64,000 bases of DNA from Dickeya aquatica (GTDB lineage: Bacteria > Pseudomonadota > Gammaproteobacteria > Enterobacterales > Enterobacteriaceae). The DNA lies in NCBI RefSeq assembly GCF_900095885.1, contig NZ_LT615367.1:124001-188000 (forward strand), given 5' to 3'. The stretch's first letter is position 1. Each line of letters begins with the position of its first letter. Shown in pieces: positions 31,614 through 61,032 of this stretch. The notes beneath the pieces are model-generated. The model was given only the letters and a program-made list of their open reading frames with translations, did no database searches and had not been told where the DNA came from. The translations under genes were made by a program, and so were the position numbers.

Positions 31614-31760
31614 TGCCGGTTTCTCCGGGTAGTGTGTAGTAGCAGTAAGTCTGTCGTCACCGCAGTTGTGACGCGTAGTAGTGAGTTGTGCTGAGAGTAG
31701 TGTGTAACGTGTGACAGAAGTAACCTGTTTTCCTTGCCATAGACACCATCCCTGTCTTTT

Positions 31761-31788
31761 AGCCCGCCTTGATGGCGGGCTTTTTTTT
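31761..31788 (+). terminator. Rho-independent terminator between cpxP and the tail-fibre array
   Basis: AGCCCGCC (31761-31768) pairs with GGCGGGCT (31774-31781) around a five-base loop, followed by eight T. The same CCCGCC/GGCGGG hairpin is repeated after later tail-fibre cassettes, so it probably belongs to the array's ancestral unit. The remaining gap to 31994 carries the leader of the first fibre gene. Confidence 0.85.
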
Positions 31789-31994
31789 ATCCCTCGCCCG
31801 TCCATTTGGGGCTCTCTCGTTGTGCCATTACTCTCCCAACGCCGTACGCAGGCGTTGTGTTTAGTCTGTCTGCATACTGTTTTGTGTTGCCTCAATGAAC
31901 GTGAATGCCTTGCACATCGCGTGTTGAGAGGGTGGCGAAGTGGGCTCCATAACAGAGATGGAACCCGTAGCGTGGATTCTGATTGAGAGATGTT

Positions 31995-33110
31995 ATGAGC
32001 GCAAAATATACAACGCTGCTGACGCAGGTAGGGGAAAATAAACTGGCGAAGGCCATCGCTCAGGGCAGGCAACTGGCGATTACCCAGATGGGGGTGGGAG
32101 ACGGTGGTGGCGTGTTGCCCGCCCCGACTCTTAACCAAACCATGCTGATTAATGAAAAACGGCGCGCGCCGCTCAATACACTGAGTATTGACCCAACCAA
32201 CCCCAGGCAGATTATTGCCGAGCAGGTGATCCCGGAAAATGAAGGGGGTTTTTGGCTGCGGGAGATAGGCTTATACGATGCGGATGGGGATTTAATCGCC
32301 GTCGCCAACTGCCCGGAAACCTACAAGCCGCAGTTACAGGAAGGCTCGGGCCGCGTACAGACGGTACGAGTCACGCTGGCGGTCAGTCAAACAAGTGCCG
32401 TGTCGCTGTCAATTGATGCGACCGTGGTATTTGCTACCCGTAGCTATGTCGATAATGCGCTGGCAAATCATGAAAAGAGTCGCAAACACCCGAATGCCAC
32501 GCTGACGGCGGCGGGTTTGGCACAATTGAGTAACGCCATTGATAGTGATAGCGAAACGCTGGCCGCCACCCCGAAAGCGGTAAAAGCGGCAAACGACAAT
32601 GCAAACGGGCGCGTTCCTTCGCTGCGCCAGGTCAATGGCAAAGCCTTGTCTGCCGATATCATCTTAAATGCAGCAGATGTGGGGGCGATATCCATCAATG
32701 AAATGGCGGGCATTCCGCTGCCGTGGCCGCAGGCAAACGCCCCCGCTGGCTGGCTGAAATGTAACGGCCAGGCGTTTGACAAAGCGCTCTACCCTAAACT
32801 GGCGCAAATTTACCCTTCAGGCTCATTGCCGGATTTGCGCGGCGAATTTATTCGCGGCTGGGATGATGGGCGTGGGGTGGATGCGGGTAGAACCATAGGT
32901 AGTTGGCAGGAATCAACAAAAATATCGGGATACGTCGGAAATGACGGGCATGGATCTCTGGCAAGCGGTGTAGTGGAACAAGATATTGCAGAAATTCATG
33001 CGACATACACACGATATGCGGTGACAACATCTGCTGCATTTCTTGGTTCTAATTTATATAGAGTTAAGCCACGCAACGTCGCTTTTAACTACATCGTGAG
33101 GGCTGCGTGA
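31995..33110 (+). CDS. phage tail-collar fibre protein, cassette 1
   Basis: 371 residues starting at the ATG behind GAGAGA. Residues 1-150 are the tail-fibre N-terminal attachment domain (DUF3751 / phage tail-collar fibre type: AKYTTLLTQVG, MGVGDGGG, VIPENEGGFWLREIGLYD, CPETYKPQLQEGSGRVQTV). A linker with tail-fibre repeats (about 160-235, AAGLAQLSNAIDSDSE) leads to the phage collar domain IPLPWPQANAPAGWLKCNGQ and LPDLRGEFIRGWDDGRGVDAG. A unique tip (about 295-355) ends RNVAFNYIVRAA. Such fibres bind host surface receptors. Unlike cassettes 2-4 it has no tail-fibre assembly gene behind it. No capsid, sheath or baseplate gene is nearby. Confidence 0.88.
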   Translation: MSAKYTTLLTQVGENKLAKAIAQGRQLAITQMGVGDGGGVLPAPTLNQTMLINEKRRAPLNTLSIDPTNPRQIIAEQVIPENEGGFWLREIGLYDADGDLIAVANCPETYKPQLQEGSGRVQTVRVTLAVSQTSAVSLSIDATVVFATRSYVDNALANHEKSRKHPNATLTAAGLAQLSNAIDSDSETLAATPKAVKAANDNANGRVPSLRQVNGKALSADIILNAADVGAISINEMAGIPLPWPQANAPAGWLKCNGQAFDKALYPKLAQIYPSGSLPDLRGEFIRGWDDGRGVDAGRTIGSWQESTKISGYVGNDGHGSLASGVVEQDIAEIHATYTRYAVTTSAAFLGSNLYRVKPRNVAFNYIVRAA

Positions 33111-33232
33111 TGCAGCCACGCGCATATGCTGGGTGCTAAAATACCCCTCCCGCTCCTGCTTTCATCTTGAGAGAAAAAGCGTCGGGCTAATCATCCTTTC
33201 TATTTTATCGACCATCAATAGCGCTCCTCTTT

Positions 33233-33255
33233 CCCGCCTGCTGGCGGGTTTTTTT
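33233..33255 (+). terminator. Rho-independent terminator after fibre cassette 1
   Basis: CCCGCC-TGCT-GGCGGG followed by seven T. It lies in the 314-bp interval 33111-33424, which also holds a leader similar to those of cassettes 3 and 4 (TTGTTGTGCCATCG) and no gene. Confidence 0.88.
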
Positions 33256-33424
33256 GCATCGTATTGTTGTGCCATCGTAGCCAGAACGCCTGTTAAAGGT
33301 AATCGCCTGGGTGCATCACCATAATGGTTGTGAGAAAGCCTGGCACGCCTCTGCCATTTGTCTTTATCGCAGGTGCTCCACGGCTGGCTGATTTTCCGAT
33401 TAATCAACGTAGATGAGAGACACA

Positions 33425-34579
33425 ATGGGAACCAAATACTTCACGTTGTTGACCCGCATTGGAGAAGCCCGGTTAGCCGAGGCGATATCGAAGGGACAAC
33501 CGCTGGAAATTGCCCAAATGGGGGTCGGTGATGGTGGCGGCTCGCTGCAAATACCGAATCCGATGCAAACAAAATTGGTGAATGAGAAACGGCGTGCGTC
33601 AATTAATTCACTCAGCATTGACCCGAATAACACCAACCAGATAATCGCCGAGCAGGTTATTCCAGAAAATGAGGGCGGTTTTTGGCTGCGTGAAATGGGG
33701 TTGTACGATATCGATGGCAATTTAATTGCGGTTGCCAATTGCCCGGAAACCTATAAGCCAGAGCTCAAAGAGGGCTCAGGGCGCGTGCAGACGGTGCGCA
33801 TGATCCTCATCGTCAGCCGTACCGATGCGATAACGCTCAATTTTGACCCGACGGTGGCGCTTGCCACAAGACGCTATGCCGATACCTTGCTGTCCGATCA
33901 CGTTGCAGCGGCAAACCCGCACAAGCAATATGCGCCGCTGGTAAGCCCAGCGTTGAGTGGCGTGCCGACGGCACCAACGGCGGTAGTGGGCACCAGTAAC
34001 AGCCAACTGGCGACCACGGCCTTTGTTAAAGGCGCAATTGAGGCACTGGTAGCCTCTTCCCCGGAGGCACTGAATACGCTCAATGAACTGGCTGCCGCAT
34101 TAGGTAACAACCCAAACTTTGCTACCACCATGACCAATGCTCTGGCGAACAAGCAGCCGCTGGATAACACGCTGACGGCTCTGTCAGGAAAATCCGTTGC
34201 GGCACTGCTCAATTATCTGGGCCTGGGGTCGGCGGCGCAGCGTAATGTTGGCGGTATGCCCGACCAAATCCCCGACATGAGCCATTTTTTGGTTGGGCAG
34301 TCTGGCACGCTAGGGGCGTTTCGCTTGCCATCAGGCCACCTTGTGCAGTTTGATTCCGGTGTTTTGAATAATGTTGGCGGATTTACGAAAAGCTATCCCG
34401 TGCCGTTCCCTAATGCCACCCTTGTGCTAATCGGGGTGATGTACGGTACGTTAGGTCTCAGATGGGTGGCCACACCGAACACCTTTGACAGGTCGGCGGC
34501 GAATATCAATTTCGTCGATGCCACCACAGGTAACGGTATGACGGGGCAAACCGTAGGTTATTTGGCGATAGGTTACTGA
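33425..34579 (+). CDS. phage tail fibre protein, cassette 2 (different tip)
   Basis: 384 residues. The N-terminal 150 residues are close to cassette 4 and similar to 1 and 3 (GTKYFTLLTRIGEARLAEA, VIPENEGGFWLREMG). A linker typical of tail fibres follows (HKQYAPLVSPALSGVPTAPT, then SSPEALNTLNELAAALGNN). The C-terminal third lacks the collar domain of cassettes 1 and 3 and instead reads SGTLGAFRLPSGHLVQF...GQTVGYLAIGY, the pattern of the small beta-sandwich receptor tips seen in other tail fibres. The cassette is followed two bases later by its own assembly chaperone, forming a two-gene unit. Confidence 0.88.
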   Translation: MGTKYFTLLTRIGEARLAEAISKGQPLEIAQMGVGDGGGSLQIPNPMQTKLVNEKRRASINSLSIDPNNTNQIIAEQVIPENEGGFWLREMGLYDIDGNLIAVANCPETYKPELKEGSGRVQTVRMILIVSRTDAITLNFDPTVALATRRYADTLLSDHVAAANPHKQYAPLVSPALSGVPTAPTAVVGTSNSQLATTAFVKGAIEALVASSPEALNTLNELAAALGNNPNFATTMTNALANKQPLDNTLTALSGKSVAALLNYLGLGSAAQRNVGGMPDQIPDMSHFLVGQSGTLGAFRLPSGHLVQFDSGVLNNVGGFTKSYPVPFPNATLVLIGVMYGTLGLRWVATPNTFDRSAANINFVDATTGNGMTGQTVGYLAIGY

Positions 34580-34580
34580 T

Positions 34581-35015
34581 ATGAAAAATATGAAAAGCGT
34601 TTATTCACCCTCGCAGAATGTGATTTATCCCGCACAGCTTTACGCCGACTATCAACGTGCTGGCACATGGCCTGCTGATGGAATAGACATCAGCGATGAT
34701 GATGCCGTGCGGTTCAACCCGGTTAATCAACCAGCAGGCAAGGTGCTGGGGTATGTGGCGGGGGCGCTAGCCTGGGTTAATGAGCCTGCACCATCACCTG
34801 TGCAACTGATCAAAGAAGCCGAGCTAAGACGCCAGCAGCTTCTTGCAACGGCCAATACCCTGACGGCCGACTGGCGAACAGAGCTTGCACTGGGGATTAT
34901 TGATGATGAGGATAAAGCGAAACTGGTTGAATGGATGAAATACATTAAAGCCGTGAAAGCCGTAGACACCACGACTGCGCCGAGTGTTAGCTGGCCCGAG
35001 ACACCGAATATGTAG
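34581..35015 (+). CDS. tail fibre assembly protein (Tfa type), cassette 2
   Basis: 144 residues. The N-terminal part (VIYPAQLYADYQRAGTWPADG) and the C-terminal helical part (EAELRRQQLLATANTLTADWRTELALGIIDDEDKAKLVEWMKYIKAVK) match the caudoviral tail fibre assembly family. Tfa proteins chaperone trimerisation of the neighbouring fibre and may stay on its tip. It starts two bases after the fibre stop and is followed by a strong terminator, so the pair is one transcription unit. It differs in its N-terminal half from the chaperones of cassettes 3 and 4, as expected if each is matched to its own fibre tip. Confidence 0.85.
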   Translation: MKNMKSVYSPSQNVIYPAQLYADYQRAGTWPADGIDISDDDAVRFNPVNQPAGKVLGYVAGALAWVNEPAPSPVQLIKEAELRRQQLLATANTLTADWRTELALGIIDDEDKAKLVEWMKYIKAVKAVDTTTAPSVSWPETPNM

Positions 35016-35044
35016 TCGAGTCAGTGGTAATCGTCCCCGTTCTA

Positions 35045-35067
35045 CCCGCCTGCTGGCGGGTTTTTTT
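35045..35067 (+). terminator. Rho-independent terminator after fibre cassette 2
   Basis: CCCGCC (35045-35050), loop TGCT, GGCGGG (35055-35060) and seven T. The 60 bases from here onward are near-identical to those after 33243 and similar to 37134, showing a repeated terminator-plus-leader block. Confidence 0.9.
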
Positions 35068-35237
35068 GCATCGTATTGTTGTGCCATCGCCCCCACAACG
35101 TCCACCGGACGATTTCCCGCCTGCCTGTTTGCATAATGTTGTGAGACGTAACAACGAACAGAGAGGGCTTGCGACGGAGCGGTGTGTACCGGGTCAGTCG
35201 CGATGCCACGAGATGAGAGAAAGCAGGGAGAGAAAGC

Positions 35238-36389
35238 ATGGCAGTGAAATACATGACAGTGCTCACGCAGGTGGGCGCGGCAAAACTGGCGAATGCCACC
35301 GCCCTCGGAAAAATGCTGAATATTACGCATATGGCAGTGGGTGATGGCGGTGGCAACCCCACGATGCCCGACCCGGCGCAAAAAGCGTTGATCAATGAAA
35401 AACGCCGTGCACTGCTTAATGCACTGCGTGCCGACCCGGCAAACCCGAACCAGATTATTGCTGAGCAGGTGATCCCTGAAAACGAGGGGGGATTTTGGCT
35501 GCGGGAAATCGGCCTATTTGATGCCGATGGGGATTTAATTGCCATCGCCAACTGCCCGGAAACCTACAAGCCGCAGTTGCAAGAAGGCTCTGGCCGGGTG
35601 CAGACGGTGCGTATGATTCTGGTCGTGAGTAACACCAGTGCGGTGACGCTGAAAATTGACCCGGCGGTGGTGCTGGCCACGCGCAAGTCGGTGGATGATA
35701 AAGCGCTGGAAGTGAAAGCTTACACCGAGGAGTTGATGGCAAAACATCAGGCGGCCAGCAACCCCCACCCGCAATATGCGCCGCTGGCAAACCCGGCATT
35801 AACAGGTGTACCGACGGCACCAACGGCAGCGGCGGGAACCAATAACAGCCAACTGGCGACCACGGCCTTTGTCACCGCGGCGGCCAATACGGTCTCTGCC
35901 AGCGTATCGGCGACGACAGCCGCAAATCTTGCCAAAAAACTGGATATTGCAGACATCGCGGGTATCCCGCTGCCGTGGCCGCAGGCTAGCGCGCCTGCCG
36001 GCTGGCTGAAATGTAACGGCCAGGCCTTTGATAAAGCGCTCTACCCAAAACTGGCGCAGGTGTACCCCTCCGGCACCTTGCCGGATCTACGCGGCGAATT
36101 TATTCGCGGCTGGGATGACGGGCGCGGGGTGGATGCGGGGCGCACACTGCTGTCGGGGCAGTCGGATGCAATAGGAGTCTTTCAGGCGACAAACAGTAAA
36201 TCTGTGCTGGCATTTTTTGTCAGTACCCTGCGATCTGCTGCTTACCCGGCAACGGATGCAATGGACGGGTTTCAGGCCGGTGAGGGCTTTGGCGGTACGG
36301 AAGCCTCCGTATCACGTGCTGTCTTTCGCAGCGCGGCGGAGACGCGCCCCCGCAACGTCGCCTTTAACTACATCGTGAGGGCCGCATAA
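35238..36389 (+). CDS. phage tail-collar fibre protein, cassette 3
   Basis: 383 residues. The attachment domain (AVKYMTVLTQVGAAKLANA; VIPENEGGFWLREIGLFD; SGRVQTVRMILVV) occupies residues 1-145. The linker contains HPQYAPLANPALTGVPTAPT repeats and an Ala/Thr-rich helix. The collar domain from about residue 237 is nearly identical to cassette 1 (IPLPWPQASAPAGWLKCNGQ; LPDLRGEFIRGWDDGRG) while the tip (about 298-368) is different, before the shared RNVAFNYIVRAA. So cassettes 1 and 3 share scaffolds but not receptor-binding tips. The stop TAA shares one base with the following chaperone start. Confidence 0.88.
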   Translation: MAVKYMTVLTQVGAAKLANATALGKMLNITHMAVGDGGGNPTMPDPAQKALINEKRRALLNALRADPANPNQIIAEQVIPENEGGFWLREIGLFDADGDLIAIANCPETYKPQLQEGSGRVQTVRMILVVSNTSAVTLKIDPAVVLATRKSVDDKALEVKAYTEELMAKHQAASNPHPQYAPLANPALTGVPTAPTAAAGTNNSQLATTAFVTAAANTVSASVSATTAANLAKKLDIADIAGIPLPWPQASAPAGWLKCNGQAFDKALYPKLAQVYPSGTLPDLRGEFIRGWDDGRGVDAGRTLLSGQSDAIGVFQATNSKSVLAFFVSTLRSAAYPATDAMDGFQAGEGFGGTEASVSRAVFRSAAETRPRNVAFNYIVRAA

Positions 36390-37021
36390 TGCAAACCAAT
36401 GACATCGCTGTATTAGGCGAAAATGGACTGGCGTCCAACACTGGCTGGCTGACGGTCTACCACGCCGATACGCAGACCGGCGAATATTATGACAACAGCG
36501 AAGAATACCTGATGGCGGGCACCGGCTTGCCTGCGCACAGCTACGCCGATGCGCCACCGGCGGATGTGGCGACCGGGCAGGCGGTGCGGCGCGCTGTTGA
36601 TGGGTTGAGCTGGGAGGTAGTCGCGGACTTTCGCGGTCAAACGGCGTATGACACCTGCACCCGCCAGCCGCAGGTGATGGGCACGCTCGGTGATTTGCCA
36701 GAGCACCTGACGCTGCTGGCCCCGGCCAGCGAATTTGACCGCTGGCAAGATAACCACTGGGTGACGGATACCGCAGCACAGCACGCTGCCCGTGTACAGG
36801 CAGCGCAGCGTGAAAGTGAGGCATTGCGTCAGGCCGCCCGTGAGCGCATCAGCGAGCTGACCTATGCCGAAGAACTGGAGATGGCGACAGAGCAAGAGGC
36901 GCAGTTGCTCAAGGCATGGAAAATCTATCTGGTGCAGTTGAGCCGGATTAACCCGGCACAGGCTCTGGATATTGTGTGGCCGACCATACCTGACCGTGCA
37001 GTGGAGACTGGCCTGAAATAA
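36389..37021 (+). CDS. tail fibre assembly protein (Tfa type), cassette 3
   Basis: 210 residues, the longest chaperone of the array. The N-terminal half has a tail-fibre-like fold (GWLTVYHADTQTGEYYDNSEEYLM; AHSYADAPPADVATGQAVRR), and the C-terminal half carries the family helix (RVQAAQRESEALRQAARERISELTYAEELEMATEQEAQLLKAWKIYLVQLSRI). The start overlaps the fibre stop by one base, giving coupled translation. Probably specific for the cassette 3 collar fibre tip. A terminator follows after 100 bp. Confidence 0.85.
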   Translation: MQTNDIAVLGENGLASNTGWLTVYHADTQTGEYYDNSEEYLMAGTGLPAHSYADAPPADVATGQAVRRAVDGLSWEVVADFRGQTAYDTCTRQPQVMGTLGDLPEHLTLLAPASEFDRWQDNHWVTDTAAQHAARVQAAQRESEALRQAARERISELTYAEELEMATEQEAQLLKAWKIYLVQLSRINPAQALDIVWPTIPDRAVETGLK

Positions 37022-37124
37022 CGCTGCAAACAGTTTTCTCTGACCGACGTTTTTACGTTTGTTTTCAGTCTGATGGCTTTAATCCCTTTTATCTCGTTGT
37101 CGATAAGATATTTTTTATCTTCCA

Positions 37125-37147
37125 CCCGCCCTCGGCGGGTTTTTTTC
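37125..37147 (+). terminator. Rho-independent terminator after fibre cassette 3
   Basis: CCCGCC, loop CTC, GGCGGG and seven T (37140-37146). The following leader repeats TTGTTGTGCCATCG and a GCATAATGTTGT element seen before cassettes 3 and 4, which may contain the -10 box. Confidence 0.88.
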
Positions 37148-37312
37148 ATCCATCTTGTTGTGCCATCGCCCCCACTGCGCCCATCGGACGATTTCCTGCC
37201 CGTCTGTTTGCATAATGTTGTAAGAAAGCAGAGCAAACCCCGGACATTTGTCTGTATCGTGGTTCTCTGCCCAGGCCGATTTTTCGTTTAATAAAAACAG
37301 GTGAGAGAAACG

Positions 37313-37981
37313 ATGGGAGCAAAATATTTCACGTTGTTGACCCGTATCGGTGAAGCCAAATTGGCAGAGGCGGTGTCAACAGGTAAGCCGCTGGGCATTA
37401 CCCAAATGGGCGTGGGTGATGGGGGCGGCGTGTTACAAACGCCTGACCCGATGCAGACCAAACTGGTCAACGAGAGACGGCGTGCACCCATTAATTCACT
37501 GAGCGTTGACCCGAATAACGCCAGCCAGATAATCGCAGAGCAAATAATTCCTGAAAATGAGGGCGGGTTCTGGCTGCGTGAAATCGGTTTATATGATGCG
37601 TCCGGCAATCTGATAGCGGTTGCCAACTGCCCGGAGACGTATAAACCAGAGCTCAAAGAGGGCTCAGGGCGGGTGCAGACGGTACGCATGATCCTCATCG
37701 TCAGCCGTACTGATGCGCTCACGCTAACCTTTGACCCGACGGTGGCGCTCGCCACCAGGCGCTATGCCGATACTCTGCTGGCCGATCATATTGTCGCTGC
37801 CAACCCGCACAAGCAATATGCGCCGTTGCTCAGTCCTGCTTTTAGCGGTAACCCGACCGCTCCCACTCCGCCGCTCTTTGATGCTGATAGCAGCATTGCG
37901 ACCACCGGGTTTGTGCAGCGTGCGTTGGGGAATTTACGTGGCGTTTATCAAGTAAAAGATAGCACTGTCCTTACTAAATAG
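37313..37981 (+). pseudogene. phage tail fibre protein, cassette 4, N-terminal fragment
   Basis: 222 codons of a tail fibre close to cassette 2 (GAKYFTLLTRIGEAKLAEA; HKQYAPLLSPAFSGNPTAPT), ending RGVYQVKDSTVLTK. Its TAG stop is formed at the junction with the IS630 element. The missing C-terminal end reappears beyond the IS elements at 40445-40651, and the matching chaperone gene is at 40789. The attachment domain is intact, but no collar or tip remains, so the product could attach but not bind a receptor. Confidence 0.85.
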
Positions 37982-37990
37982 CTTCTCATA

Positions 37991-39028
37991 TTACCGCTCC
38001 ACTTTAGCCAGGCCAGGTTGGTTGCCGGGAAATGGTGAAGCTGCATTCATAAATTGCGTTACCTGTTTCAGTAACTGCCACATGTACCGGCACTGATGAT
38101 TTCGCGTTATCGTTTCGTGTAACGACAGCCACAACCGTTCAATTGGATTCAGCCACGGCGAATAGGTCGGCAGAAACAGTAGCCGGAACTTACTGTTCTC
38201 CGACAGCCAGCGCGCCACTTTGTGGCTTTTATGGATGATGTCGTTATCAACCACCAACGTAATGGTTTTCGCCCGCCGGTATGTGCGTCGTAATGCCTCT
38301 AACAGTTGGATAAATAAATCAGAACTCTTGCTGTTGCCACTAACGTAGGAGACTCGGCCCGTCCCCGAATGCAGTGCGCCAGCCAGATAATGTTTCTGGT
38401 TCTGTCCCGGCGTGGCGATACGTTTCTGCTGCCCTTTGGGCATCCAGTCGGCACCGATTTTCGGGTTCAGGTCGATATCGACTTCATCCTGATAAAACAC
38501 GGGATTAGCCGCTGAGCCCTGAGCCAGCGCCTGCTCGATGGCAAGCCGCTTTTCATCATAATGCGGGTCCCTGATTTTCAGCGTCGGTGCGGCCCTGCGC
38601 CAGACCATACCGGCCTGTTTGAGGTATCGGTGCAGGGTGGAGCGGTGAAGCGTCACGTCAAAAAGCCGGTTGACGATACGGGTCAGTAACTCCGTGCTCC
38701 AGCGGGAGCGCAGCCAGCCGAAATCCTTCGGTGAACGTTGAACCAGCAACGGAAGCACACGCTGGATATCGGCGACGGGCCAGCAAGGCGCACGACCGGG
38801 CCTGAGGCTCTTGAGTCCTTCAACACCTTGTAAAGTAAACCAGTTTATCCATCTTCCGACGGATGAACGCGCAGCACAGAGCAGTCTGGCGACGTCGGTG
38901 ACGGTCATTCCCCGATGCAACATCAACATGGCAATGAGTCGTCTGGCATAATTTTTATCGCGTGTTTGTTGGGCTTCTTTGCACATCAGTTGTCGTTCTT
39001 CATCAGGGATTGCTGCTATGATCGGCAT
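37991..39028 (-). CDS. IS630-family transposase
   Basis: 345 residues. N-terminal helix-turn-helix region (RRLIAMLMLHRGMTVTDVARLL; ARSSVGRWINWF) is followed by the DDE/D catalytic domain: VFYQDEVDIDLNP (first Asp), LVVDNDIIHKSHKVARWL (second Asp, with the DN-x-H pattern typical of IS630/Tc1), and LPTYSPWLNPIERLWL (third acidic residue). The frame is intact, so the enzyme may be active, though its right terminal repeat is now separated from the gene by the nested element. Codon use and GC are similar to the host. Confidence 0.92.
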   Translation of the reverse strand: MPIIAAIPDEERQLMCKEAQQTRDKNYARRLIAMLMLHRGMTVTDVARLLCAARSSVGRWINWFTLQGVEGLKSLRPGRAPCWPVADIQRVLPLLVQRSPKDFGWLRSRWSTELLTRIVNRLFDVTLHRSTLHRYLKQAGMVWRRAAPTLKIRDPHYDEKRLAIEQALAQGSAANPVFYQDEVDIDLNPKIGADWMPKGQQKRIATPGQNQKHYLAGALHSGTGRVSYVSGNSKSSDLFIQLLEALRRTYRRAKTITLVVDNDIIHKSHKVARWLSENSKFRLLFLPTYSPWLNPIERLWLSLHETITRNHQCRYMWQLLKQVTQFMNAASPFPGNQPGLAKVER

Positions 39029-39203
39029 CGCTCAGTCCGGTTGGTGATTTGGGATATTTGGCGATTGATCAGATCGCTCAATTCGGACTGAGTTCCCTTC
39101 AAGTGATCTACTATTTTGCGATAATGAAATGGACACCTCCCCATATTGGCTTCAGTGAACCATGCTGTAAGTGTCATCCAACAGCACAATGAAGAGGTGT
39201 CCC

Positions 39204-40226
39204 ATGGAACAAATTATCGGAATTGATCTGGCAAAGCGAGTTTTTCAGGTTCATATCGTTTCTGCACAAGGCGAGAAAAAGGCGAACAAAATGATCACTC
39301 GTGAAAAGCTGATGGCTTTTATTGCTCAGCAACCCTTGTCCAGAATTGTGATGGAAGCGTGCGGGAGTGCCAATTACTGGTCCCGCCAGTTTAAGACATT
39401 CGGGCATGACGTCAGACAAATCAGCCCGCAGTATGTGTCGCCCTTCAGAATGGGAAATAAGAACGACAAAAATGACGCCACCGCTATTGTCGAGGCTGAC
39501 AGTCGTCCGGGAATGCGCTATGTACCAGAAAAAAGTCTTGAGCAGCAGGATATTCAGTGTATTCACCGGGTTCGCCAGCGGTTGATGAAAAACAGAACGG
39601 CGCTGATTAATCAGATTAGGGGGCTGGGTCTGGAATACGGTATTGCGATACCGGAAGGTGCACACAAAATCATGACCTGTCTGCCCGATTATCTGGAAGA
39701 CGCGGAGAATGAACTTACCGCTCTCAGCCGACAACTGTTTCACGAAATATGGCTGGAACTGCAGGACTGCCAGCAACGTATCAAAACGCTGGATGTACGC
39801 CTGGAGCAGATAAGTACACAGAACGAGGATACAGCCCGGCTGGTAAATATACCGGGTATCGGGCCACTGGGGCATTCAGCACTGACGATAGCGCTGGGTG
39901 ACAGCCGAAGTTTTAATAATGGCCGACATTTTGCCAGTTATCTGGGATTGGTGCCCGGTGAGCACAGCAGCGGCGGTAAACCCAGACTTTTGGGAATAAC
40001 GAAGCGTGGCGATGGTTATCTGCGCGGCTTGCTTATCCATGGTGCCCGCTCCGTGGTTTATCGTACGGTTAACCTCCCGGATGAGCGGTGTAGTGCCCTC
40101 CAGAGATGGCTGAAGGGTATTATTGTTCGCGGCGGCGTGAATAAAGCCGTTGTGGCGCTGGCGAACAAAAATGCCCGGGTGGCCTGGGCATTGGTAAACC
40201 AGAGAACAGAGTATAGGATTCAGTAA
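39204..40226 (+). CDS. IS110/IS1111-family transposase (DEDD recombinase)
   Basis: 340 residues from the ATG in CCCATGGAAC. The N-terminal RuvC-like DEDD domain shows IIGIDLAKRVFQVHIV (Asp7), RIVMEACGSANYWSR (Glu) and NDKNDATAIVEA (Asp). The C-terminal transposase_20 domain has VNIPGIGPLGHSALTIALGD, FASYLGLVPGEHSSGGK with the catalytic-type serine, and RRGDGYLR-like KRGDGYLRGLLIHGARS. The frame is intact. Enzymes of this family recombine DNA under the guidance of a structured RNA encoded in the element's non-coding end. Confidence 0.93.
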   Translation: MEQIIGIDLAKRVFQVHIVSAQGEKKANKMITREKLMAFIAQQPLSRIVMEACGSANYWSRQFKTFGHDVRQISPQYVSPFRMGNKNDKNDATAIVEADSRPGMRYVPEKSLEQQDIQCIHRVRQRLMKNRTALINQIRGLGLEYGIAIPEGAHKIMTCLPDYLEDAENELTALSRQLFHEIWLELQDCQQRIKTLDVRLEQISTQNEDTARLVNIPGIGPLGHSALTIALGDSRSFNNGRHFASYLGLVPGEHSSGGKPRLLGITKRGDGYLRGLLIHGARSVVYRTVNLPDERCSALQRWLKGIIVRGGVNKAVVALANKNARVAWALVNQRTEYRIQ

Positions 40227-40239
40227 CAATCTGATTGAT

Positions 40240-40428
40240 AAGAAGTCCAAAGCGTTGATGTACTGACAGGTAGAACCGACTCTCTGTCAACCTGGCAAAT
40301 AGCTCGGCCACAGCAGGCCATGGCGTTAATGAGGCCAGAGAGTACGGATGTTCATCAGGGCTCACGAAGCCGGATATATGTGTGTGACTACGTTGTCAGA
40401 AAAAACCAGCCCGTGCTTGCACTGGGTC
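40240..40428 (+). ncRNA. candidate bridge/seek RNA of the IS1111-type element
   Basis: The non-coding right end forms consecutive hairpins: TGACAG/CTGTCA (40264-40269 with 40284-40289), TGGC/GCCA (40293-40296 with 40307-40310) and GGCC/GGCC further on. The loop of the second contains AAATAGCT (40297-40304), the exact complement of AGCTATTT at the right insertion junction (40440-40447). In guide-RNA-dependent IS110 elements a loop pairs with the target in this way. Limits are approximate and transcription is not shown. Confidence 0.45.
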
Positions 40429-40444
40429 GGTGTCCATATAGCTA

Positions 40445-40651
40445 TTTAGTTCATGGGGACGCGACGCACTAGCTAATGGTGGCTTTAGTACCGCTGCTGC
40501 AGATTACGATGGTTCGATAGAACAGACCCACTCGGCACCTGAATTGGGTTATACGGGGATAGAGTCCTCTACATCTGTAGTTGCCAGAACGACAGCTATT
40601 CGCGTACGACCACGAAATGTTGCCTTTAATTATATCGTAAGAGCAGTGTGA
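40445..40651 (+). pseudogene. C-terminal remnant of tail-fibre cassette 4
   Basis: In the frame FSSWGRDALANGGFSTAAAD...ELGYTGIESSTSVVARTTAIRVRPRNVAFNYIVRAV the sequence is clearly the end of a collar fibre, because cassettes 1 and 3 end the same way. If the ACTAAA before the IS is joined directly to the TTTAGT after it, the frame continues from the N-terminal fragment. The collar domain present in cassettes 1 and 3 is absent, so the insertion was probably accompanied by a deletion. No start is available. Confidence 0.75.
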
Positions 40652-40788
40652 GATTAATTAATGCTATATATTTTCCATGTCGGATTTTTAAGGTAATTGG
40701 TGATTTTTAATCAGTGAGTTTTATTTTTTAAATGTGGTTTTGGTTGGATGTGTATTATTCAGCGGATGCTGGTTATTAAAGGTGTATT

Positions 40789-41175
40789 ATGACAACTTAT
40801 TTTTCTCCTCAATATATGGGTTTTTATTCAAGTAATGTGCATGGTGATAATATCCCCGGCGATGTGGTTGAAATTAACGATGGCTATTATCAACAATTAT
40901 TAAATGACCAGGCCCTTGGTAATGTGATTGTTTTTGATGAATCAACCAGGCAACCCATTGCCGTAACACCTGCTCCGATTTCCGACGTTGAATTAGCGCA
41001 AGCGATGCGGCGTCAGCGTGATAGCCTGCTGGGCGCGAGTGACTGGACTCAGGTGGTGGATGCGCCCGTCGATAGGCAAGCCTGGCGAGCTTACCGTGAA
41101 TTATTGCGTCAGGTTCCTGATCAGGCTGGTTTTCCGCAGGAAATTCATTGGCCTCTATCACCTGAAAATCACTGA
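40789..41175 (+). CDS. tail fibre assembly protein (Tfa type), cassette 4
   Basis: 128 residues: an N-terminal domain (YFSPQYMGFYSSNVHGDNIPGD; IEINDGYYQQLLNDQ-like segment) and the C-terminal Tfa helix (SDVELAQAMRRQRDSLLGASDWTQVVDAPVDRQAWRAYRELLRQV). It matches the E. coli-prophage Tfa length and layout. It belongs to the broken fibre cassette 4, and is preceded by an AT-rich 137-bp stretch. With its fibre gone the gene has no local client, though Tfa proteins can sometimes serve related fibres. Confidence 0.85.
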   Translation: MTTYFSPQYMGFYSSNVHGDNIPGDVVEINDGYYQQLLNDQALGNVIVFDESTRQPIAVTPAPISDVELAQAMRRQRDSLLGASDWTQVVDAPVDRQAWRAYRELLRQVPDQAGFPQEIHWPLSPENH

Positions 41176-41236: not shown

Positions 41237-41692
41237 TCAGCCTAATGATGTCGTCGCAGGCCACACCATTTCTGCCAGGTTCTCCGGGTAGAATATGTCT
41301 GGTGTGGCAAGCAGTTCTTCACGGCTCCACCAGTGATAATCGCGCATGACGTGGCGTTCGTGATCCGTCCATGCCTGTGTATTGAGCGTGTTTTCGCTGG
41401 TATGGATGATAAAGAACTGCTCCTCGGCCAATACAGTTTCGCCGTTTGGCATCGCCAGAGGAAAGGCCCTTGTTGCCACACTGGGGCCCGCGTTCTGGCG
41501 GCGAATACCGGTTTCTTCCCACAGTTCCCTCAATGCCGCCTGTTCAAAGGTTTCTCCATTTTCCAATGCGCCTCCCGGCGTTGCCCAATAACGCTTTCCG
41601 GCAAGGGCATCATCAGTATGATGAAAGAGAAACAGTAAGACGTGATGTTGCGGATTGAGGATCAACAGGCGTGACGATGGCCGTTTTTTCAT
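41237..41692 (-). CDS. NUDIX hydrolase
   Basis: 151 residues. The Nudix box GALENGETFEQAALRELWEETGI fits GX5EX7REUXEEXGU exactly (about residues 42-64) and gives the metal-binding helix. The N-terminal strand SSRLLILNPQHHVLLFLF and the C-terminal DYHWWSREELLATPDIFYPENL complete the fold. Substrates of the family are nucleoside diphosphates linked to another moiety; which one is used here cannot be read. AGGGG precedes the start. It stands alone between the tail-fibre array and an HTH gene, in the enlarged cpxP-fieF interval. Confidence 0.92.
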   Translation of the reverse strand: MKKRPSSRLLILNPQHHVLLFLFHHTDDALAGKRYWATPGGALENGETFEQAALRELWEETGIRRQNAGPSVATRAFPLAMPNGETVLAEEQFFIIHTSENTLNTQAWTDHERHVMRDYHWWSREELLATPDIFYPENLAEMVWPATTSLG

Positions 41693-52326: not shown

Positions 52327-52704
52327 TTATATATTTATTCTGTGCTGGTAATCAATGAATATATTTTTAAATAATTCAATGATCATTTTGAATTTTGAAA
52401 AATCAATATCTTTATGATTCTGTTTAACAATTATCTCTGCAAATTTTTTCTTGCCAAAATAAAGATTTTTGTCAAATTTATTGTTGGTGGTGAAACTTTT
52501 TTCTCCTAATTTTTTAGATAAAGTTTTTGTGTCGAAAAAATCCTCGATTTTTGTTTCTTTCATATCAAATATCAAAGGGGTTTTAACAACATAAAAATTT
52601 TCACATACATAAGTAAAACCATCGAGTATTTCCCGTGTCTCCATAAATTCTCTGTTGATCACTCCTTCGACCCCAACTGATCCGCTGTCGTTATCAAGTA
52701 GCAA
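52327..52704 (-). pseudogene. retron TOPRIM effector domain, C-terminal fragment (out of frame)
   Basis: 125 residues continuing the TOPRIM domain of the retron reverse transcriptase gene in another frame. It begins MLLDNDSGS, the Asp-x-Asp metal motif of TOPRIM, and continues FYVVKTPLI, TKIEDFFDTKTLSKKL and DFSKFKMIIELFKNI, parallel to the end of Ec67 RT (LDNDTG, LYIVLTPL, SMEDLFP, DFKAF). The upstream part of the domain (VVICEGETDNIYL with the catalytic Glu) is in the RT frame. The start codon of this fragment is fortuitous; in the intact gene it would be residues about 430-555 of one protein. Confidence 0.8.
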
Positions 52705-54005
52705 TATAACTGGAAACTTTCTCGGGGAGATGAAAATCTACTCATTCTTTTCTGATAAGTATTTAATAACTTGATGTTATTCCCTGCTCCATCGGTAATA
52801 TTTAATAATCGGTAAAGTAACTTGGTCTGCTTGAATAAATGAATATCTATTCTTTTTTTGATTCCCTTTCCATAGTTTTGTAGTTCAGGATAATAGCTTA
52901 CCAAGTTTTTAAAAGCATAATTCAAATATATGTTATCGGTTTCACCTTCACATATTACAACTGTTCTATTATTTGCTGCAAAATTTTTATAAAACAAAAA
53001 ATCAGAATAAGTTTTTTCAAATGAGTCATGTGTTTTTCTAGGTTGACCATTGGCATTTTGCATATCCATTCTATTTCTTATTTGATATATGAAACTTAAC
53101 ATTCCATTAAGTTTTTCAAGGCTTATAGGCGTTTTTTCTCCGTTTAAAGATATGAATGCTTGATTATTTTTGAAAAAATTATTGGCCATTGCTCTGGCAA
53201 GATGTTTGAATTCAGATTTGACATTAACTTTTTTGTTTACGATCAAGCCCGTAACGTCCTGCCTTGAATCCTTACATTGGACTCTTGTTTTATTATCATT
53301 AATCGTGAAACCAGATCTTTTTATTTCATTTATTAATGATTTTCCAATAATAGGTTTGTGGTCATGTAATTCCATAATATCATTAGGAAAGATATTTCTA
53401 TTGGTTGATATAGTCAAATCATCGACGTATCTGGTATAGAAACATTTGTTTTTCTTTGCTAATGCACTGAGTTTTACATCTAATATTTGAGCAATCATAT
53501 TGGATATTACAGGGGAGCAGGGGCTGCCTTGGGGAAGACTGTTCTCATGGCAAGCAATTTGGGCAATAATCGTTGCTGTCTTTTCTGGAAGCATAAAGTT
53601 TTTGTTGTGGATAAAATATCCTCTGACTCTTCCAAAATTGATACTGTCGAAAAAATTCTCTAAATCAAGATTTAGTACAAGATTTTTATTTTTATGCTCA
53701 TAAGCATTCGTAAAAATTGATTTTCCTTTTGTATAACCATGCGAAGATATCCTTTTATTTTTTTTACCATTGATCTCTTCGATACACTCTTGTAATCCTT
53801 TAGCAAGCCGCCGCTGCAACTCCTTAAGTTTTTTTGCTGGTGCTTTAATATCTCTGTGACCACCATTTTTCTTTCTAATTTTAAATGTTATATAATTATT
53901 TTGGCTTTTATAGATTGTATATGCTAATGATTTTGGTGAGCAACCAAGCAGATTTGCAATATCTGAAATGTTCTGAGATTCTTTTAGTTTAGCCAGGAAA
54001 CTCAT
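52659..54005 (-). CDS. retron reverse transcriptase with N-terminal half of a fused TOPRIM domain, Ec67 (Retron-Eco2) type
   Basis: 448 codons. Retron RT motifs: LVLNLDLENFFDSINFGRVRGYF (motif A), LPQGSPCSPVISNMIAQ, the catalytic YVDD in CFYTRYVDDLTIST, and INDNKTRVQCKDSRQDVTGLIVN with the retron-type VTG. The C-terminal TOPRIM begins KNFAANNRTVVICEGETDNIYL. Order and sequence parallel Ec67 RT, whose fused TOPRIM is the toxic effector and whose msDNA keeps it in check. After SSPR the frame runs on with unrelated residues to a stop, while the TOPRIM DxD motif continues in the -1 frame (52327-52704); the shift maps to a run of four C at 52724-52727, where a fifth C would restore SSPPRKFPVILLLDND. 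The RT itself is intact. Confidence 0.88.
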   Translation of the reverse strand: MSFLAKLKESQNISDIANLLGCSPKSLAYTIYKSQNNYITFKIRKKNGGHRDIKAPAKKLKELQRRLAKGLQECIEEINGKKNKRISSHGYTKGKSIFTNAYEHKNKNLVLNLDLENFFDSINFGRVRGYFIHNKNFMLPEKTATIIAQIACHENSLPQGSPCSPVISNMIAQILDVKLSALAKKNKCFYTRYVDDLTISTNRNIFPNDIMELHDHKPIIGKSLINEIKRSGFTINDNKTRVQCKDSRQDVTGLIVNKKVNVKSEFKHLARAMANNFFKNNQAFISLNGEKTPISLEKLNGMLSFIYQIRNRMDMQNANGQPRKTHDSFEKTYSDFLFYKNFAANNRTVVICEGETDNIYLNYAFKNLVSYYPELQNYGKGIKKRIDIHLFKQTKLLYRLLNITDGAGNNIKLLNTYQKRMSRFSSPRESFQLYCYLITTADQLGSKE

Positions 54006-54991: not shown

Positions 54992-55255
54992 ATGAAGAAG
55001 CGTTTTTCCGACGAACAGATCATCAATATTCTTCGCGAAGCCGAGGCGGGTGTTTCCGCCCGCGAACTTTGCCGTAAGTACGCCATCTCCGACGCCACGT
55101 TTTATACGTGGCGTAAGAAGTTTGGTGGCATGGACGTACCTGAAGTAAAAAGGCTTAAGTCACTTGAAGAAGAGAACGCCCGCCTCAAGAAGCTGCTCGC
55201 CGAAGCCATGCTGGATAAAGAGGCACTACAGGTGGCTTTGGGCCGAAAGTACTGA
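54992..55255 (+). CDS. IS3-family transposase OrfA
   Basis: 87 residues: helix-turn-helix [42 protein letters not shown] (about 4-46) and a leucine-zipper-like helix [25 protein letters not shown] (about 53-78), as in all OrfA proteins, which bind the IS ends. It ends at TGA 55253-55255. A -1 shift at the A-AAG of GGCCGAAAG about 12 bases before the stop would fuse it to OrfB ([12 protein letters not shown]). Confidence 0.93.
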
Positions 55256-55278
55256 CGACAGACCAGAAGCGGGAAGCC

Positions 55279-56112
55279 GTGACAGTGATGTGCAAAGCGA
55301 CAGGTCTGTCGCAACGGCGTGCCTGCAGGCTGACAGGTTTGTCCCTGTCGACCTGCCGTTATGATGCGCACCGCCCGGCTACTGATGCGTATCTGTCTGC
55401 ACGTATCACCGAACTGGCAATGGAACGCCGACGTTTCGGTTACCGGCGTATCTGGCAGCTTCTGCGTCGTGAAGGCCTTTGCGTTAACCACAAACGGGTC
55501 TACCGCATCTATCATCTCAATGGCCTGGGCGTAAAACGCAGACAGCGCCGTAAGGGTCTGGCGACTGAGCGGCTTCCGCTTCTTCGCCCGGATGCGCCGA
55601 ACCTGACATGGTCGATGGATTTTGTCATGGATGCACTTGCCAGCGGCCGCCGGATTAAGTGCCTGACTTGTGTGGATGATTTCACGAAGGAGTGTCTGAC
55701 GATCACTGCTGCTTTCGGTATTTCAGGCGTTCAGGTCACGCGTATTCTGGACAGCATCGCGCTCTTTCGTGGCTATCCGGCGACAATAAGAACCGATCAG
55801 GGCCCGGAATTTACCTGCCGTGCGCTCGATCAATGGGCCTTTGAGCATGGTGTGGAGTTGCGACTTATCCAGCCAGGTAAGCCAACGCAGAACGGATTTA
55901 TTGAGAGTTTCAACGGTCGCTTTCGGGATGAATGCCTGAATGAACACTGGTTCAGCGATATTCTTCATGCCCGGAAAATCATTAATGACTGGCGGCAGGA
56001 CTATAACGAGTCCAGACCTCATTCATCGCTGAATTACCAGACGCCGTCTGAATTTGCAGCAAGCTGGAGAAATGGAAAATTAGAAGGTAAACAAACCGAT
56101 ATTACTAACTGA
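55279..56112 (+). CDS. IS3-family transposase OrfB (DDE integrase domain)
   Basis: 277 residues from an internal GTG, normally made as an OrfAB fusion by -1 frameshifting. HTH_21 region [25 protein letters not shown] is followed by the rve catalytic core: [13 protein letters not shown] (first Asp), [11 protein letters not shown] (second Asp), and [22 protein letters not shown] (Glu), with spacing D-D-35-E. C-terminal [19 protein letters not shown] is standard. The frame is complete, so the element is probably functional. Confidence 0.94.
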
Positions 56113-59038: not shown

Positions 59039-60112
59039 TTATGCGATTTCTTTTCTAAAAGGGGTTACGTTGTAAGCTTCCCCATTTTCTAATGAAACAA
59101 GCAATGCGCACCATATATCTAATGCTTTTTTACGCTCATCAAAGTACTGATAGCGATTGTATATGCCTTCTACACCCTTTATTTTGTGGTTTAAGCAACG
59201 CTCTGCTATCACCGGATCTACACCCAGCGCAGCCAAATGGGAGCGTGCCGTTCGCCGAAAATCATGAATCGTGAAATTTGGTACGTCTGGCATATTTGCT
59301 CTTATTTTAGCTAACGCTACAGGCAAGGTACTTTCCTGAATATGAGGAATCATGCGGTGTTGCATTTTTCTTGCCGGGAGGACCCATTCACTGTTGCCGG
59401 ACATGTTTTGCAATTCTGTAAGCCAGCCAATAACGGGGGCAGCAAGCGGGATATCAATACCATCGCCGTTTTTAACGCGTTCAGCGGGCAAATGCCAGAC
59501 ACCTCCATCCAGATCAAATTCTGACCATCTAGCGCCACACAATTCCATCTTTCGGCAACAGAGGGCCAAAATGAGCTTCATAGTTAGTTCATTCTGCCGG
59601 GAAAACCCCTTGGTCAACGGCATTACCTGAAAAAGCTTTACCAGTTCTTCTCGGCTTAACCAGCGTTCACGACTTTGTTCTTGTCCTCCGGCATCAGAGA
59701 TATCAAATGCACTTGCTGGATTAGTAGCCAGCATGTGCCGCTTGATACCGTAGTCAAAGATCCGTCGAGTCCACCTGAGAACGTCATTGGCAACGGTAGG
59801 CGCTCCCCGCAGAAGGATTTTTTGCAACATATCATCAATATGATAGGGGCGAACGTCCTCTATTCGCAGATTGCCTATATTTGGATTTATATCTTTTTCG
59901 ATGCGGCGGCGCAGTATCTCGGGGTGCTTCCAGCGTTTAAGTATCTGACGTTCAAAATATTCGCTGGCTAATTGGGAAACCCGAAGTGCGTGCTTTTCAG
60001 ACTCCATTTTTTTGAGGGCATCAGCTTTCCGTTCTTGCTTCTCTCCGGCTACGTCATAACCCAATGCTACACGCGCAGAGAGCTCTTTAGCTGTTTCCCG
60101 CGCTCTTGCTAG
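59039..60112 (-). pseudogene. P4-type tyrosine integrase, main part (split by IS5)
   Basis: From the IS junction it reads ARARETAKELSARVALGYD, the end of the N-terminal domain, then the SAM-like core-binding domain (VSQLASEYFERQILKRW) and the catalytic domain with Arg in ALCCRKMELCGARWSEFD, His-x-x-Arg in IHDFRRTARSHLAALG, and the final LNHKIKGVEGIYNRYQY with the Tyr nucleophile. Together with 61034-61225 it gives a 420-residue P4-like integrase. The IS has removed the normal start, so excision is unlikely unless the fragment is expressed from the IS. Confidence 0.88.
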
Positions 60113-61032
60113 GGTGTGTCCCGTAACTGTTTTTTGTACAATCAGGGACATGATTTTGCCACAAAAAGTACTTCAATTTGGCTCGTTACGATTTTCCCGA
60201 TGATGCATGGGCGCTGATTTCTCCCATGCTGCCGCCTGAAAGAGGCTCTTCCAGAGGCGGCCGTCCTTACTTTGCTCACCGGCATGTCATGAATGGCATA
60301 TTTTGGGTGCTTTGCTCCGGCGCACCGTGGCGGGATTTACCTGAGCGTTATGGTCAATGGAAAACGATTTACAACCGCTTTAACCGGTGGTCTAAAGCCG
60401 GAGTAATAAACAGTATTTTCAATAAATTACTCCAGATTCTGGATGAGGGCGCACTGATTGACTGGGATGTTATCGCGCTGGATGGCAGTAACGTTCGCGC
60501 CCTGAAAGCGGCCGCTGGTGCGAAAAAAAACATCCCGATGAACACGAGGACCATGGGCTGGGTCGCTCACGCGGCGGCTTTGGCACCAAAATCCATCTGG
60601 CGACAGATGGCACAGGATTACCGCTAAGTTTTTGCCTGAGCGGTGGACAGGCCCACGAAAGCCGGTATGCGGAAACGTTGCTTAACCGCGTCGGGATTAT
60701 CCGAAGAAGTGGGCATCTGAAATCGCGTCCGAAAGCGGTACTGGCGGATAAGGGTTACTCAAGTAACAGCCTCCGCATTCATTTGAAAATAAAGGGAATA
60801 AAAGTGGTAATTCCGTTTAAATCGAATGAGAAAGCCAGTCAGGACAGACGTCGGCCCCTCGACAGAGGCCTGTACAAAAAACGCAATGTCGTGGAGCGCT
60901 GCTTTGCGATACTCAAAGAAAATCGTCGTATCGCTACACGCTCGGAAAAAACAGCCAGAAACTACCTGAGTATGCTAAAGCTGGGGGCGATCAGGTTATT
61001 TTTGAAGCGGTTGTTAAGTTAAGGGACACAGC
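60113..61032 (+). mobile_element. IS5-family insertion sequence, IS427 group
   Basis: 920 bp with terminal repeats GGTGTGTCCCGTAAC (left) and GGCTGTGTCCCTTAAC (right, read inward), flanked by CTAG on both sides (60109-60112 and 61033-61036). IS427-group elements give 2-4 bp duplications around TA, often at CTAG. It interrupts the integrase gene and encodes a two-frame transposase. Confidence 0.9.
60178..61022 (+). CDS. IS5/IS427-group transposase, two frames joined by -1 frameshift
   Basis: The first frame (60178-60627; likely TTG start, ARYDFPDDAWALISPMLPPE) carries the N-terminal DUF4096-type domain (YFAHRHVMNGIFWVLCSGAPWRDLP) and the first catalytic Asp in ALDGSNV. It passes an A-rich slippery site at about 60519-60527, A-AAA-AAC in phase, after which the -1 frame reads DEHEDHGLGRSRGGFGTKIH through the second Asp (ADKGYSS) and the final Glu (NVVERCFAILKENRRIATR) to 61022. 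This is the usual expression strategy of the group. Both frames are complete. Confidence 0.9.

Follow-up and report, generated by a model that had tools for sequence, protein, structure and literature searches.

What are four phage tail-fibre genes doing between the chromosomal genes cpxP and fieF of Dickeya aquatica? We examined this question in a window of 64,000 nucleotides (contig NZ_LT615367.1, positions 124,001 to 188,000; G000:C1:124001-188000 in our numbering) from a single-contig genome of 4.50 Mb, in which the fibre array lies at 0.16 Mb. The original prediction, made from the letters of the window, was a reservoir of interchangeable receptor-binding genes that could recombine with a prophage or an R-type tailocin elsewhere in the genome. 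We consider it probable that the array acts as an unlinked fibre regulon of the Dickeya tailocin, co-induced with it and loaded in trans, rather than as a silent recombination reservoir. With slightly better than even confidence, we further propose that Dickeya holds an unlinked, genus-wide fibre bank that shares the late activator of the tailocin, and that each induction would yield a cocktail of particles with mixed targets.

Fibre cassettes behind cpxP in Dickeya

Within the window, the cpxP-fieF interval (31995-41175) holds four fibre genes of the P2 gpH type, all on the plus strand, as had been predicted. Each carries an N-terminal attachment domain of about 150 aa, hereafter the anchor, which matches the PF12571 profile with E values of 5e-60 to 5e-65. 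The domain is common to all four, but its description as nearly constant was overstated, since the anchors are 67-86% identical in pairwise comparison. Three fibres are open, with a Collar tip on fibres 1 and 3 and a Gp53-like_C tip on fibre 2. The fourth is cut after about 220 codons and has IS630-like and IS110-like transposase genes inside it. The expected set of two collar tips, one tip of another type and one broken fibre was thus recovered, together with three assembly chaperones (two Caudo_TAP and one Phage_tail_APC, in cassettes 2, 3 and 4); fibre 1 has no chaperone. The gene fieF does follow the array, but one Nudix gene and one Xre-type gene lie in between.

Between cpxP and the Nudix gene, we saw no integrase, replication, head, terminase or other phage gene, in agreement with the original prediction, and the interval is not a rearranged complete prophage. 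The baseplate gene J/I, behind which fibres usually sit, is also absent from the array; the fibres of the tailocin and of the P2 prophage do have it. We rejected a DNA-inversion switch for these cassettes: the array has no inverted repeats of at least 30 nt (seed 12), no invertase gene was seen, and all cassettes face the same way. No Rfam family matched the array at gathering scores.

We searched for PF12571 and CpxP in nine Dickeya genomes (G000, that of D. aquatica, to G008), one per species, a sample in which exchange within species could be missed. Anchors were counted by tblastn, truncated ones included. The survey of cassette number suggested by the original prediction gave 2-6 anchors directly 3' of cpxP in 9/9 species (4, 5, 2, 4, 5, 5, 5, 4 and 6 in G000 to G008, 40 in total), and 35/40 array fibres have an open frame of 300 aa or more. 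A Nudix gene and then fieF follow the Dickeya arrays on the 3' side, with no Nudix gene listed in G002. Outside Dickeya, anchors were found at 0/78 cpxP loci within flanks of up to 10 kb, some of them shorter; these loci include Pectobacterium, Lonsdalea, Brenneria, Serratia, Yersinia, Citrobacter and Escherichia. The only two loci with anchors among the 80 named loci of this survey were the two from Dickeya. The cpxP-fieF fibre array is a trait of the genus Dickeya.

An 8-kb insert at the same site in Prodigiosinella looks like amino-acid transport genes, not fibres. In the arrays of four of the nine species (G001, G005, G006 and G008), the gap between cpxP and cassette 1 contains an open reading frame (ORF) of 162 aa on the opposite strand, with a start near MKMNFSFL. 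G006 also has a second, unlinked fibre site, where a single PF12571 fibre gene (L058:4485-6998; product about 812 aa), preceded by a promoter of the array type, stands between ycgN-like and dsbB-like genes.

Late promoters of the array and the tailocin

We found a composite promoter, TGTTGTGCCAT-N7-ACAACG followed after 29-30 bp by GCATAATG, 5' of 36/40 array anchors. A promoter was called when a site agreed with TGTTGT-N12-ACAACA at 9/12 positions or more and a -10 stood at the proper distance. The consensus of the site is TGTTGTGCCATcGCtGccACAACg and that of the -10 is GCATAATG, with a gap of 30 bp in 31/36 promoters and 29 bp in 5/36. The TGT half is invariant in all 36, and the A, C and A of the other half are present in 28, 33 and 33 of them. 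No such promoter was called for G003_c2 or for three G001 anchors, of which one is truncated and two lie behind runs of N. The site lies about 55 bp upstream of the expected transcription start. In P2 late promoters the activator site is centred near -55, and the inverted half-sites with N12 and the placing of the -10 are alike in the two systems. P2 late promoters drive phage operons, whereas each Dickeya promoter of this kind serves one fibre cassette on the chromosome that belongs to no phage. According to the available part of one report, TGT-N12-ACA is present in the P2 promoters P_P, P_O, P_V and P_F, whose activity depends on the zinc-finger activator Ogr (PMC3931495). Most array cassettes carry what reads as a P2-type late promoter layout, and we infer that these promoters depend on Ogr. 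A separate promoter on 36/40 anchors fits genes that are expressed. In the window, a terminator-like hairpin and an Ogr-type promoter lie 5' of every cassette (4/4); a strict terminator criterion was passed before 20/36 array promoters, so we claim insulation for the window alone.

Exact copies of the 11-base left half number 25 across the nine arrays, and every one is on the strand of the fibre genes. When the three anchor clades are compared, identity is 89-97% in the left half-site, 90-96% in the -10 and 61-79% in the right half, and falls to 35-42% in the spacer, 28-39% in the 30 bases upstream and 22-53% in the leader. Because the half-site and the -10 were kept while the spacer and flanks diverged, shared descent alone is not enough to explain the likeness of the promoters. 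The search pattern TGTTGTG-N47-GCATAATG, derived from the arrays themselves, gave 21 exact matches in the nine genomes, 21/21 in arrays. With one mismatch allowed there were 36 matches, 28 in arrays and 8 outside, versus 1 for the reversed control. Across 392 genomes of the family, exact matches occurred in 5 genomes, all Dickeya, and in 0/387 others; the reversed control had one exact match in each of 2 genomes. The short pattern TGTTGTG-N12-CAAC alone did no better than its control in the D. aquatica genome (5 vs 4); the composite that includes the -10 outperformed its own. Site scores of at least 9/12 were reached by 181/2000 shuffled 300-base stretches and scores of at least 10 by 18/2000, compared with 18/23 cassettes at 10 or more. 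The site score alone is a weak criterion, and the fixed spacing of the -10 carries the promoter argument.

Unlinked to the array, at about 2.578-2.601 Mb, G000 carries P2-type tail genes in a cluster that lacks head genes. It contains V, W, J/I, an H fibre, a serine invertase, alternative tips, a chaperone, sheath, tube, tape measure, U and ogr (names assigned from relatives and by eye). No match to the terminase, portal or capsid of the resident prophage was found in the cluster, and none was seen by eye. With sheath, tube, baseplate and ogr genes and no head or terminase gene, it fits an R-type tailocin locus, and the array fibres lie outside it. Counterparts exist in the other Dickeya genomes, that of G007 only partial and at a contig end, and 8/9 tailocin loci have a serine-invertase gene, the ninth being cut by a contig end. 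Related anchors elsewhere in the genome, which the original prediction called for, were found in both the tailocin and the P2 prophage of G000. The tailocin H fibre of G000 (G000:C1:2587801-2589224) reads as two pieces in different frames; if this split is real, the array holds most of the open fibres of this genome.

In 8/8 loci with a sheath gene, the sheath promoter consists of the 11-base half-site TGTTGTGCCAT, a C(A/C)AAC right half, 30 bp and GCACTAT(T/G). Exact TGTTGTGCCAT-N9-AAC occurs 29 times in the nine genomes, with 17 matches in arrays, 9 of the sheath type and 3 elsewhere. Eight of the 9 sheath-type sites were confirmed before a sheath gene, and the ninth is on the contig carrying the ogr gene of G007. 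One mismatch raised the count to 74 versus 15 in the control, so these matches include noise. The tailocin fibre genes (9/9) have a promoter of the same geometry as the array, with a 30-bp gap. At the level of sequence, the array and the tailocin sheath operon share a promoter code, which supports the predicted link to a tailocin elsewhere in the genome. Ogr (PF04606) is present in 9/9 Dickeya genomes and is encoded by the tailocin. Five of the nine (G001, G003, G005, G007 and G008) have a single ogr gene, in four of them within the tailocin cluster; that of G007, on another contig, was assigned to the tailocin from its score and an adjacent sheath-type site and is probably part of it. With only the tailocin's ogr in these five genomes, maintenance of the array does not depend on a P2 prophage. 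The three other TGTTGTGCCAT-N9-AAC sites (G002:C11:3408682, G003:C1:3721027 and G007:C15:56137) are apparently one shared site.

Anchor and tip evolution, proposed mechanism and alternatives

We built a maximum-likelihood tree of the anchors with 50 rows, leaving out G001_c2, c3 and c4 and G002_c2, which are truncated or behind N runs. One branch sets apart the 36 array rows (support 97/93), another the 9 tailocin rows (100/95) and a third the 4 P2 prophage rows (100/97), and the position-1 anchors of all nine species cluster together with support 92/96, below the starred level. This grouping by origin and position suggests that the array is old and that its anchors were largely inherited by position. 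On the basis of this tree, we rejected the idea that array fibres were recently duplicated from that of the tailocin. The median ratio of nonsynonymous to synonymous substitution (dN/dS) is 0.054-0.079 in four anchor groups, compared with 0.054 for the tailocin H and 0.057 for the P2 H, although these ratios are rough because dS is high (medians 0.5-1.5). They were computed from 30/36 full array anchors in four hand-made groups, excluding pairs with saturated or tiny dS (32/36 pairs kept at position 1), and indicate that array anchors are under purifying selection.

The 35 open array fibres form 27 tip clusters at 60% identity. In nine fibre pairs the tips are more alike than the anchors: 8 are array-array, 1 is tailocin-tailocin and none is array-tailocin or array-P2, in a comparison that dropped G002_x and G008_x (N runs) and could use G007_x and the G000 tailocin fibre only partly. 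Examples are G000_c2/G004_c4 (tip 96% vs anchor 68%), G000_c1/G004_c3 (92% vs 69%) and G001_c5/G007_c3 (94% vs 79%), indicating that tips shuffle between anchors within arrays across species. Array tips were searched against the tailocin DNA, together with the alternative tips of its invertible segment, and the highest identity over at least 90 aa was 68% (152 aa); against P2 prophage DNA it was 79% over 155 aa, with another match of 71% over 282 aa. These values point to an old relationship, and no recent copying was seen. The interchangeable tips of the original prediction therefore hold within arrays, but recombination into a prophage or tailocin fibre gene is unsupported by the tree, the tip pairs and the tailocin matches of 68% at most.

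In the mechanism we propose, each cassette would be its own late transcription unit, with a P2-type late promoter, an anchored fibre with a variable tip and often its own chaperone. SOS induction would turn on the tailocin cluster, and the tailocin Ogr would also activate the array. Array fibres would compete with the tailocin H fibre for the same baseplate sockets, and a producer population, perhaps one cell, would release particles with several target specificities. The shared promoters are read directly from the DNA; induction of the array, its loading in trans and its effect on killing range are predicted from them. According to the available part of a Xenorhabdus study, xenorhabdicin killing was restored or shifted when the fibre gene xnpH1 was expressed from attTn7 (PMC13280938), so fibres with this type of anchor (called DUF3751 there) can be supplied from outside the tailocin cluster. 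As far as the accessible text goes, mitomycin C raised expression of the cluster fibre gene of D. dadantii 3937 191-fold after two hours, so tailocin induction can be measured (PMC12297226).

Several observations weigh against this mechanism. The array anchors of G000 are only 68-73% identical to the tailocin anchor and stand on a separate side of the tree, so they may not fit the tailocin baseplate. The promoters of the tailocin fibre genes have TGTTGTC, not TGTTGTG, and their left half is 58-61% identical to that of the array (7/9 measured). Further ogr genes, which might act on the array, are present in 4/9 genomes. The array is partly degraded, with 1/4 cassettes broken in G000 and one open fibre plus one truncated anchor in G002. 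In D. dadantii 3937, in which the presence of an array was not checked, mass spectrometry (MS) of eight gel bands of the tailocin showed two fibres only, both encoded by the cluster, according to the part of the report available (PMC10719855).

A silent reservoir, in which cassettes donate tips that are copied into the tailocin or prophage fibre gene, would explain why tips move between anchors inside arrays. It also agrees with some P2 prophage tips that are about as array-like as their anchors (G006_y/G008_c2, tip 71% and anchor 73%) and with the fibre-locus recombination reported for the Pectobacterium carotovoricin in the accessible part of PMC13195805. We regard it as unlikely, since array, tailocin and P2 anchors are separated by supported branches, no tip pair crosses between array and tailocin or P2, the tailocin matches are distant and silent donors do not need conserved promoters. 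Slightly less probable again is that the array serves or sabotages P2-like phages, whose Ogr would activate it and whose virions would take up its fibres, with adsorption widened or misdirected. Activators of the Ogr/Delta type do act in trans in P2/P4, G000 carries a P2-type prophage with head and tail genes plus an adjacent partial one, and 4/9 genomes have more than one ogr gene. However, 5/9 genomes keep 4-6 anchors with the tailocin ogr only (by assignment in G007), and the TGTTGTGCCAT half-site was found once in the P2-type stretches examined, outside the late genes (G000:C1:1901103).

The 3' end of cpxP is a P2-type integration site in other genera. A P2-type integrase lies just after cpxP in 7/13 non-Dickeya cpxP loci without fieF in the examined flank, P2 prophage records begin at the cpxP 3' end, and E. 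coli W has the P2-type Wphi1 at cpxP-fieF, as the available text of PMC3032704 describes. The same region is the source of the CpxQ sRNA in E. coli, according to part of PMC4817254. Since P2-type elements use this site, the array likely descends from an ancestral P2-type prophage reduced to its fibres. The integration site thus serves well as a statement of origin, but a decaying, functionless remnant of such a prophage is the least probable of the alternatives: anchors persist in 9/9 species with 35/40 fibres open, dN/dS is 0.05-0.08, promoter motifs were kept while the spacer drifted, and no other phage gene is left.

Known systems share parts of the tailocin regulon that we propose. Dickeyocin P2D1, the P2-type R tailocin of D. 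dadantii 3937, is described in the available part of PMC10719855 as one 22-kb cluster with two fibres by MS. It comes from the same genus, its P2-type cluster has fibre, sheath and tube genes, and the anchors studied here belong to the same family. Its type matches the G000 tail cluster by description, strain 3937 not having been compared directly, and a word search of the accessible text of that paper did not find cpxP, fieF or Ogr. In the xenorhabdicin loci, as far as the available part of PMC13280938 describes them, there are many tips per tailocin, an ectopic fibre sets the killing profile and ogrK flanks the locus; the extra fibres there are inside the tailocin locus and have no conserved anchor, whereas those of Dickeya are remote, anchored and equipped with their own promoters. 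The Pectobacterium carotovoricin keeps its fibres diverse by recombining their C-terminal tips while the N-terminus stays conserved; Ein inversion and genus-wide recombination change one fibre locus in cis, while the Dickeya array consists of several complete parallel fibres (PMC13195805, in the part available). Extra tips inside the tailocin locus, invertase switching and fibre-locus recombination are thus already known; the searches made, which covered open-licence papers, turned up no description of complete fibres that are banked genus-wide away from the tailocin and share its late-promoter code.

If the proposal is correct, targeting diversity would arise by parallel expression in trans, not by DNA inversion or by gene conversion within a single fibre gene, and one activator acting on many small late transcription units would keep several specificities at once. 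The killing range of a tailocin is usually inferred from the fibre inside the cluster. If remote fibres are loaded, genome-based killing predictions would miss much of the repertoire, and cluster-only studies would see part of the weapon.

Feature coordinates and further observations

Table 1. Features of the cpxP-fieF fibre array, in window positions
Feature	Position	Strand	Remarks
cpxP	31035-31613		gene 5' of array
cpxP 3' region	31724-31791		conserved; matches ends of P2-type prophage records
Terminator-like hairpin after cpxP, 5' of cassette 1	31761-31788	+	-17.3 kcal/mol, then T8
Cassette 1 late promoter	31818-31879	+	Ogr-type site 31818-31841; -10 GCATACTG 31872-31879
Fibre 1	31995-33110	+	PF12571 anchor from 31995, Phage_fiber_2 repeat, Collar tip
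Terminator-like hairpin 5' of cassette 2	33233-33255	+	
Cassette 2 late promoter	33265-33326	+	site 33265-33288; -10 CCATAATG 33319-33326
Fibre 2	33425-34579	+	PF12571 anchor from 33425, Gp53-like_C tip
Cassette 2 tail fibre assembly chaperone	34581-35015	+	Caudo_TAP
Terminator-like hairpin 5' of cassette 3	35044-35067	+	
Cassette 3 late promoter	35077-35138	+	site 35077-35100; -10 GCATAATG 35131-35138
Fibre 3	35238-36389	+	PF12571 anchor from 35238, Collar tip
Cassette 3 tail fibre assembly chaperone	36389-37021	+	Caudo_TAP
Terminator-like hairpin 5' of cassette 4	37124-37146	+	
Cassette 4 late promoter	37156-37217	+	site 37156-37179; -10 GCATAATG 37210-37217
Fibre 4, N-terminal part only	37313-37981	+	PF12571 anchor from 37313; broken by transposase genes
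IS630-like transposase inside cassette 4	37991-39028	-	DDE_3
IS110-family transposase inside cassette 4	39204-40226	+	
Fibre 4 collar-type C-terminal remnant	40450-40652, start approximate	+	repeat family D6
Cassette 4 tail assembly chaperone	40789-41175	+	Phage_tail_APC
Nudix gene 3' of array	41237-41692	-	

By eye, a gene similar to the cassette 3 chaperone stands behind the fibre gene of the resident P2 prophage. This P2-type prophage, with head and tail genes, occupies G000:C1:1909146-1953200 together with the second, partial P2-type element that adjoins it. Elsewhere in the window, an ORF on the minus strand at 52659-54005 resembles a retron-type reverse transcriptase, and the same stretch has an integrase-like ORF at 59039-60151 and an IS1222 frameshift element at 55222-55339 (Rfam).

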